Assembly: GCA_020847755.1 (NCBI GenBank)
Contig: JADLBK010000057.1
Location: 1 to 46,985 of the forward strand
Length of the DNA stretch: 46,985 nt
Origin: Flavobacteriales bacterium
GTDB taxonomy: Bacteria; Bacteroidota; Bacteroidia; Flavobacteriales_F; PHOS-HE28
Direction of reading: 5' to 3'
In this document: positions 4,826 to 34,369 of the stretch, piece by piece
Numbering within the stretch: the stretch's first letter is position 1
Layout of the letters: each line of letters opens with the position of its first letter
Notes under the pieces: model-generated
What the model saw: the letters and a program-made list of their open reading frames with translations, nothing else
Databases searched by the model: none
Told to the model about the DNA's origin: nothing
Translations under genes and position numbers: made by a program

Positions 4826-4854
4826 ACGAGCCCCGCGATGATCGCGGGGCTCGT
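4826..4854 (-). terminator. Palindromic terminator after dnaK, copy 3
   Basis: 29-bp palindrome (ACGAGCCCCGCGAT, one base, complement) located 42 bp beyond the dnaK stop. The core is identical to 141-171. It separates dnaK from the next minus-strand gene. Confidence 0.75.
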
Positions 4855-31769: not shown

Positions 31770-32093
31770 ATGGAAACCAAAGCCAAAATGGTCTACGAGG
31801 CCAAGATGTTCGTCCGGCTTGCCCTGTTGTCCTCCTTGGGCTTCGTCTTCTATTACTCCCACCTGTTCTTCGGGGTGCTCGACAATGTGTTCGTGTTCAA
31901 AGCACTGGCGGTCACCTTCCTGCTGGCCACCGTACCCCTACCGATCATCGCGCTGAACAACAAGAAGCTCTTTCCTGAGCTGAAGCGCAGCGGAAAGACC
32001 GTGCTCGCTTTCGCCTCCGTGCTGCTGCTGGTCCATCACTTCATGATGACCTTCATCTTCGTGCTCTTCCTGCAGGGACGCTCGGTCTTCTGA
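31770..32093 (+). CDS. Small membrane protein (107 aa)
   Basis: Three hydrophobic segments (MFVRLALLSSLGFVFYYSHL, VFVFKALAVTFLLATVPLPI, LAFASVLLLVHHFMMTFIFV) separated by short charged loops. It has no recognised family and no signal peptide. It is a monocistronic unit: the 12-mer CTGTTGATAAGT lies upstream and a strong terminator ends 63 bp after the stop. The next element on the same strand is the putative sigma-54-driven RNA. Confidence 0.7.
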   Translation: METKAKMVYEAKMFVRLALLSSLGFVFYYSHLFFGVLDNVFVFKALAVTFLLATVPLPIIALNNKKLFPELKRSGKTVLAFASVLLLVHHFMMTFIFVLFLQGRSVF

Positions 32094-32113
32094 ACCTGCA
32101 GGTCGTCCGGCGT

Positions 32114-32156
32114 AGGCCCCCAGGTCCCGGTGTGGACCGGGGGCCTGCGGTTTTTT
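32114..32156 (+). terminator. Intrinsic terminator with T6 run
   Basis: AGGCCCCC and GGTCC pair with GGACC and GGGGGCCT, with one bulged base and a small loop, followed by GCGGTTTTTT. It insulates the small membrane protein gene from the downstream RNA gene. Confidence 0.85.
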
Positions 32157-32176
32157 CGGCGGTTCACCGAAACATC

Positions 32177-32191
32177 TGGCACGACCATTGC
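32177..32191 (+). promoter_or_regulatory. Sigma-54 (RpoN) promoter
   Basis: TGGCACG (32177-32183), four bases, then TTGC (32188-32191). The GG at 32178 and GC at 32190 are separated by exactly 10 bp, the canonical -24/-12 spacing. The expected start site, about 12 bp after the GC, is near 32203, two bases before the first hairpin of the putative RNA. No ORF on this strand begins nearby. A sigma-54 promoter also implies a bound enhancer activator, whose site was not identified. Confidence 0.8.
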
Positions 32192-32202
32192 GTTTCAAGA
32201 CC

Positions 32203-32370
32203 ACGAGGCCCCGTAAGGCCTCCTGAACAACCGGCCCCGTAAGGCCGAACACGCATACCCGATGATCGGGGTCCTTGCCCAACTGGGCGCCTGAAGACCC
32301 CGGCCCGGCCCGTAAGCCGGCATCGGGAGAACGAACGAAGCGCGCCCCGTAAGGCGCGCTTCCTCGTTCC
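32203..32370 (+). ncRNA. Putative sigma-54-controlled structured RNA with four CCGUAA hairpins
   Basis: Four hairpins have different stems and the same 6-nt loop CCGTAA: 32205-32222 (GAGGCC stem), 32232-32247 (CGGCC), 32305-32320 (CCGGC) and 32329-32369 (10 bp, then a 2x1 internal loop, then 6 bp). Between hairpins 2 and 4, CCCGATG (32258-32264) can pair with CATCGGG (32321-32327). This encloses GGGGTC/GACCCC (32268-32273 with 32296-32301), an inner GCCC-AACT-GGGC, and hairpin 3, giving a three-way junction. The long last hairpin could end transcription. The strand is chosen from the sigma-54 promoter. No coding sequence was found inside. Repeated identical loops suggest a sponge or docking RNA by analogy with CsrB-type RNAs, but the CsrA motif GGA is absent from the loops. 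Function is inferred. Confidence 0.65.
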
Positions 32371-32400
32371 ATGCGGTGCCCTTGCGGAAAGCCGTTCGAC

Positions 32401-32898
32401 CTAGGCCGTGGTGCCTCTGCCCGGGCCTGTATCGCCCGATCGGTGCGGTCGCATGGCCTCCTCGATCTCCTGCCGCATGCCCATCAACCGGACCGCGTAG
32501 GCGCTAAGGGCCTTCTCCTCGTCCGTATCCGGGATCCACCCTGGAACGGCCACCGGGGTCCGGTCGTCATCCATGGCCACGAAGACGATGATGCAATGGG
32601 TGGTCTTCACCCGATCATGGGTCCGCGGGTCCCGCGCATGGATGTCCACCGCGATGTGCATGCTGGTGGTGCCGGTGTGGATGAGCCGGGCCTCGGCCTC
32701 CACGAGGTGTCCGATCCGGATCGGGTGATGGAACCGGATGCCGCCTACATAGACGGTGACGCAATACCGGCCGCTCCAGTTCACCGCACAGGTATACCCC
32801 GCCTGGTCGATCCACCGCATCACCGCACCCCCGTGCACCATGCCGCCATAGTTCACGTCCGTGGGTTCGGCGAGGAAGCGGAGGGTGATGGCGTGCAT
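32401..32898 (-). CDS. Acyl-CoA thioesterase (hotdog fold)
   Basis: 165 residues. MHAITLRFLAEPTDVNYGGMVHGGAVMRWIDQAGY carries the hotdog signature (NYGGMVHGGxxMxWID) of YciA/BFIT-like acyl-CoA thioesterases, with the likely catalytic Asp in WIDQAG. The following YVGGIRFHHPIRIGHLVEAEARLIHTG fits the same fold. It would release fatty acids from acyl-CoA in the cytosol. It lies 3 bp downstream of the YajQ gene, so both are cotranscribed. Confidence 0.92.
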   Translation of the reverse strand: MHAITLRFLAEPTDVNYGGMVHGGAVMRWIDQAGYTCAVNWSGRYCVTVYVGGIRFHHPIRIGHLVEAEARLIHTGTTSMHIAVDIHARDPRTHDRVKTTHCIIVFVAMDDDRTPVAVPGWIPDTDEEKALSAYAVRLMGMRQEIEEAMRPHRSGDTGPGRGTTA

Positions 32899-34327: not shown

Positions 34328-34369
34328 ACAAGAAAGAAGCGCGGGCATCGGCCCGCGCTTCTTTCTTGT
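34328..34369 (-). terminator. Strong terminator hairpin
   Basis: 19-bp arms (ACAAGAAAGAAGCGCGGGC and its complement) with loop ATCG. Located 12 bp beyond the stop of the PA-domain gene on the minus strand. The minus strand has the A/T-rich arm last, as in an intrinsic terminator. Confidence 0.85.

Follow-up and report, generated by a model that had tools for sequence, protein, structure and literature searches.

Why should four hairpins with one and the same CCGTAA loop, each on a different stem, stand side by side on one strand of a Flavobacteriales contig? They span positions 32205–32369 of the window, by which we mean the whole 46,985-nucleotide stretch of DNA analysed, and the positions, perfect stems and common loop reported for all four in a first-pass annotation were confirmed. 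All four copies of the octamer CCCGTAAG in the window lie inside the hairpin interval; 0.7 copies would be expected in the window, and none of 100 shuffles reached four. In the whole 3.67-Mb genome there are 30 CCCGTAAG sites, of which only two outside the locus form a hairpin with a stem of at least 5 bp; these two look like single terminators. The window holds 67 hexaloop hairpins with stems of at least 5 bp, and among 200 Markov resamplings of the window an identical-loop pair arose in only three and more than two such hairpins in none, compared with four sharing one loop within 200 nt at the locus. The + strand fold of the interval reaches −92 kcal/mol, with z = −5.4 relative to shuffles. 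The annotation had described the differing stems as internal covariation; such differences among four hairpins of a single sequence are suggestive, but they are not covariation in the strict sense.

Its further claim, that the RNA structure is under selection, is borne out by genus-wide conservation and by strong covariation across species. Absence of conservation in relatives, which would have spoken against a selected structure, is not what was found: of 44 further genomes of the same genus, 25 gave a blastn match to the interval, compared with none of 53 genomes of other genera, and a covariance model of the core recovered one strong copy, scoring 70–125 bits, in 39 of 45 genus genomes. G041 carries a weaker copy of 44 bits, and the model gave no strong copy in G005, G018, G025, G029 and G030. 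The phylum-wide covariance search, a weak one because nine candidates were scored per genome, yielded nothing outside the genus. When 85,000 named genomes were scanned with a pattern, the matches were one Rhodothermales MAG and 27 MAGs labelled Flavobacteriales or Bacteroidetes/Bacteroidota, of which one is named, doubtfully, Chryseobacterium gleum.

The consensus structure was built by hand and the copies were realigned with Infernal. Among 35 distinct copies, 90% of cells pair, a percentage somewhat inflated because the alignment was fitted to the structure, and both sides have changed in 22 of the 33 pairs. Covariation scores 0.336, compared with 0.138 ± 0.009 after shuffling and at most 0.082 when the partners are slid; neither the sliding control nor the count of double changes depends on that fitting alone. 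The junction helices covary with G-U pairs included (48 G-U versus 35 A-C cells). Neither the window nor ten related loci matched an Rfam 15 family at the gathering score, and the best weak matches were at chance level (E ≥ 1), in line with the annotation's statement that no known class has this architecture. No paper on a CCGUAA hairpin RNA was found among open-licence papers. The locus encodes a previously uncatalogued small RNA maintained by selection across a Flavobacteriales genus, its transcript being predicted from the features described below.

The predicted RNA would occupy approximately 32201–32375 (+), as judged by the position of the promoter, the first hairpin at 32205, the terminator-like last hairpin and the fold z of −5.4. 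Upstream lies an ECF-sigma-type promoter of the form GAAAC-N17-CGTT (32169–32194, +), with its −35 box at 32169–32173 and its −10 box at 32191–32194; these boxes would place the RNA start just before the first hairpin, about 7–10 nt past the CGTT box. The general plan in the genus, read 5' to 3', consists of this promoter, a variable 5' part, a three-way junction in which helix P1 encloses P2/P3 and hairpin H3, and finally hairpin H4. In the window's clade the variable part is formed by two CCGUAA hairpins. H1 (GAGGCC-CCGTAA-GGCCTC, 32205–32222, +) is found in that clade (L032–L036), with a compensatory change to GAGGTC/GACCTC in L036, and H2 (CGGCC-CCGTAA-GGCCG, 32232–32247, +) in the clade and in L039, as TCGGTC/GACCGA. 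Elsewhere in the genus, hairpins with other loops mostly stand in their place. The architecture first described holds in part: hairpins 3 and 4 belong to the genus-wide core, while hairpins 1 and 2 are lineage-specific additions, and both the three-way junction holding H3 and the ECF-type promoter had been overlooked.

The junction is closed by P1, in which 32258–32264 (+) pairs with 32321–32327 (+); all seven pairs changed on both sides across the genus, and 86% of cells are paired. P2 (32266–32273 with 32296–32303) changed on both sides in all eight pairs and is capped, within 32266–32303 (+), by the small hairpin P3 (GCCC 32277–32280 with GGGC 32285–32288, +). P3 showed no compensatory changes across the genus and is absent from the subgroup L052, L058, L064, L065, L074 and L083. 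H3 (CCGGC-CCGTAA-GCCGG, 32305–32320, +) lies within the junction. H4 extends over 32329–32369 (+), with GAAGCGCGCC-CCGTAA-GGCGCGCTTC at 32337–32362 and an outer pairing GAACGA/TCGTTC; it is paired in 100% of cells, with compensatory changes in four pairs. H4 is likely a terminator, after which the RNA would end: in 23 of 36 copies a TTT comes no more than 12 nt behind it, and the window's own H4 has the outer GAACGA/TCGTTC pairing instead of a U-run.

The motif GNAAC-N16/17-CGTW is present in 30 of 31 orthologous loci, versus 2.7% of control windows; the first G of the promoter is constant in all 24 distinct N17 sites, though the pattern left it free, and the spacer is variable. In Flavobacterium psychrophilum, a CGT-type −10 box has been attributed to ECF sigma factors (PMC9723704), and the predicted promoter agrees with it. 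A sigma54 promoter, TGGCAC-N5-TTGC at 32178–32192, fits well but was rejected, as it is confined to the window clade and a few relatives, in contrast to the ECF motif; this sigma54-like site overlaps the ECF-type promoter and is possibly a second promoter. The upstream neighbour is a gene for a 107-aa membrane-like protein without a Pfam match (31770–32093, +), followed by a terminator-like hairpin of its own at about 32110–32158. In many relatives, too, the RNA is immediately preceded by this gene. Downstream stands a convergent thioesterase gene (32401–32898, −), and no transposase, integrase or tRNA was seen beside the interval. Elsewhere in the window, long perfect palindromes with stems of 13–20 bp occur at 139–173, 2012–2054, 4826–4854 and 34328–34369, the first three with a common CCCCGCGA core; the arms GGAACGAGGAAGC/GCTTCCTCGTTCC of the palindrome at 2012–2054 resemble those around H4. 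All four are probably bidirectional terminators of this genome.

The loops of H3 and H4 vary far less than their stems. C(C/U)GUAA is the loop of both hairpins in all 36 aligned copies: in H3, on a stem that takes about 10 forms, CCGUAA in 35 and CUGUAA in one; in H4, CCGUAA in 32 and CUGUAA in four. The first set of loci was gathered by DNA similarity together with the loop pattern, and the later model search, which could accept other loops, found one clear exception. In G041 (L331, G041:C4:361428-361542), H3 and H4 are both without CCGUAA, and the promoter, P1, P2 and P3 are kept; the joint loss suggests that the two loops share one function. At L332 (G041:C1:750500-751500) the same genome has a terminator-like hairpin whose loop is CTGTAA, the variant seen in H3 or H4 of some relatives. 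Loop censuses, based on sampled genome stretches and pattern searches, found CCGTAA in none of the 442 hairpins with stems of at least 7 bp on both strands of 400 kb from one genome of the genus; sampled stretches of other Bacteroidota looked alike. This rules out a generic stable terminator loop; unlike the loops of generic intrinsic terminators, that of H4 is not free to vary.

Clusters of CCGUAA hairpins also recur outside the genus. Since these copies were sought by the loop, their loop constancy is given by construction, which is not the case for their hairpin form and clustering. In the order Rhodothermales, 6 of 99 genomes have at least two such hairpins within 100 nt: five in G507:C293, six or seven directly behind dnaK in G505:C44, three in G486:C16, and two each, similar in sequence, in G495, G508 and G518. 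The G495 and G508 arrays follow the same hemW-like gene, and several of the Rhodothermales arrays have GNAAC-N16/17-CGT upstream. The pattern match in G498 was discarded as a coding repeat, by its reading. The complete Bacteroidia genome G127, in whose family no other of the 148 genomes was a true positive, shows five CCGUAA hairpins in 200 nt, with a T-run terminator at the end; the genome has 21 CCCGTAAGG sites, of which four form hairpins, all of them within the array. Within the genus, G027 carries, besides an ordinary copy of the RNA, a second locus (L335, G027:C130:1-800, minus strand) with a tandem array of at least eight CCGUAA hairpins, which has two alternating spacers and runs off the contig end.

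Ten IMG/VR contigs of T4-like phages (L139, L157, L176, L187, L195, L211, L241, L317, L318 and L319) have two CCGUAA hairpins with differing stems between the major capsid gene, which they follow directly, and a late-promoter-like sequence, TATTTATA, which comes just after them; in the 183-kb and 169-kb contigs the pair accounts for the only CCCGTAAGG sites. The nearest named phage, Flavobacterium phage immuto, has a UUCG-type terminator and no CCGUAA at this place. Matches in gammaproteobacterial phages were set aside, as they have the stem AACCCGACC/GGTCGGGTT in common but not the loop. Single CCGUAA hairpins end several genes in the genus, including the '..AQATF' gene. A CCGUAA-loop terminator hairpin also follows an ECF sigma-70 gene in five genomes (L330 at G000:C35:1000-2100, L327, L328, L329 and L338), and this gene could encode the sigma factor of the RNA or be a site of its partner.

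What could such an RNA do? An RNA that repeats one loop unchanged on differing stems shows the pattern that a loop-binding partner would select, and the most economical reading is a sponge or docking RNA for a putative partner, as the first-pass annotation had also supposed. We give about an even chance to a stress-induced titration RNA that would act, in the manner of CsrB or RsmZ, on a partner binding CCGUAA hairpins. This reading starts from what is observed, namely conservation, structure, the promoter motif, loop constancy and the recurrence of CCGUAA arrays in Bacteroidota and phages. A trans-acting small RNA would be made from the ECF-sigma promoter upon an envelope- or starvation-type stress signal and would end at H4. 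The compact junction with H3, followed by H4, would display identical CCGUAA hexaloops on stems, two or more of them in general and four in the window. The loops, as the working part, may bind a partner that reads CCGUAA hairpins, most likely an RNA-binding protein, and the RNA would titrate it off other sites, e.g., same-loop hairpins at mRNA 3' ends, as CsrB and RsmZ do with CsrA. Our search found no partner protein; RRM proteins, encoded in 15 of 20 relatives including the window's own genome, are candidates and no more, as nothing links them to the RNA. Against titration speak the two CCGUAA loops of most genus members, few for a sponge, the different loops in both hairpins of the scaffold kept by G041, and the sporadic occurrence of arrays outside the genus, as in the family of G127.

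Among known systems, CsrB/CsrC and RsmX/Y/Z come closest in form, being likewise short, with a constant loop motif closed by C-G on differing stems and a terminator hairpin; CsrB and RsmZ titrate CsrA. RsmZ, for instance, has 127 nt and four stem-loops with such a motif, plus a terminator (PMC4005645). Several stem-loops with one constant loop motif are likewise present here, four in the window. The Csr/Rsm motif is ANGGAX, however, and all four loops of the RNA are CCGUAA, with no GGA motif, and its ECF-type promoter and conserved three-way junction are further differences. CsrA/RsmA (PF02599) was found in none of 20 relatives including the window's own genome, while control genomes were positive. 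As its loops lack GGA and its genomes lack CsrA, the RNA stands outside the Csr/Rsm family. Like the RNA studied here, RybB and MicA have ECF-sigma promoters; they depend on Hfq, act by base pairing and have no set of repeated identical loops. The FopS sRNAs of Bacteroides, bound by the RRM protein RbpB, are also a Bacteroidota sRNA family, one copy of which is carried by a phage (PMC11697453). They consist of a single-stranded 5' R1 seed and one terminator hairpin and are multicopy, with 14 paralogues (PMC11697453), whereas the RNA described here is single-copy, highly structured and loop-based, beginning with H1 and largely base-paired. Rfp18 of Flavobacterium is another strongly structured and conserved flavobacterial sRNA, studied as a base-pairing regulator of proteases (PMC9723704), and is set apart by this description rather than by sequence.

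Alternatively, each exposed CCGUAA loop could be a seed, repeated along the RNA, for kissing contacts with UUACGG in target mRNAs, comparable to those made by the C-rich loops in the Rsa RNAs of staphylococci. A multi-seed RNA would also show identical exposed loops, and ECF-sigma control is typical of RybB and MicA. However, 250 gene starts in a genome of the genus showed no enrichment of UUACGG (one seen, 1.4 expected; a comparison of low power), and for a six-base seed maintained for its pairing one would expect drift along with the targets across classes, whereas Flavobacteriales, Rhodothermales and phages have one and the same loop, with the limit that the copies elsewhere were sought by that very loop. 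We consider base pairing unlikely. The single CCGUAA hairpins at the ends of the ECF sigma and '..AQATF' mRNAs, the phage pairs behind the capsid gene and the terminator-like H4 point to yet another reading, in which a loop-specific protein or fold would let CCGUAA hairpins stabilise transcripts or terminate them, the RNA being a group of such ends with no regulatory role. This appears improbable to us, given that H3 sits inside the three-way junction and not at an end, that the locus has its own conserved promoter and that ordinary terminators lack the CCGUAA loop. A DNA-level repeat akin to REP/BIME palindromes, or an assembly oddity, would explain hairpins in a row, and the tandem duplication in G027 is real; yet there is one orthologous copy per genome, not a dispersed family, the promoter and terminator are conserved, and the junction helices covary with G-U pairs, so that we regard this origin as very improbable.

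Few post-transcriptional regulators are known in Bacteroidota, which lack CsrA, as seen here in the 20 relatives searched, and often Hfq as well. The titration RNA that we favour would matter in this setting, as a conserved, ECF-controlled RNA presenting a constant loop on changing stems may serve as bait to fish out a new RNA-binding protein, and the shortness of its two-hairpin core permits direct testing. Tentatively, and with clearly less than even confidence, we suggest that CCGUAA hexaloops could be an RNA recognition code of Bacteroidota, read by a hairpin-binding protein at mRNA 3' ends, displayed by ECF-stress sponges with from two to at least eight copies and exploited by T4-like phages through the pairs on their capsid mRNAs. 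The recurrence of the hairpins in phages would tie such a protein to infection.
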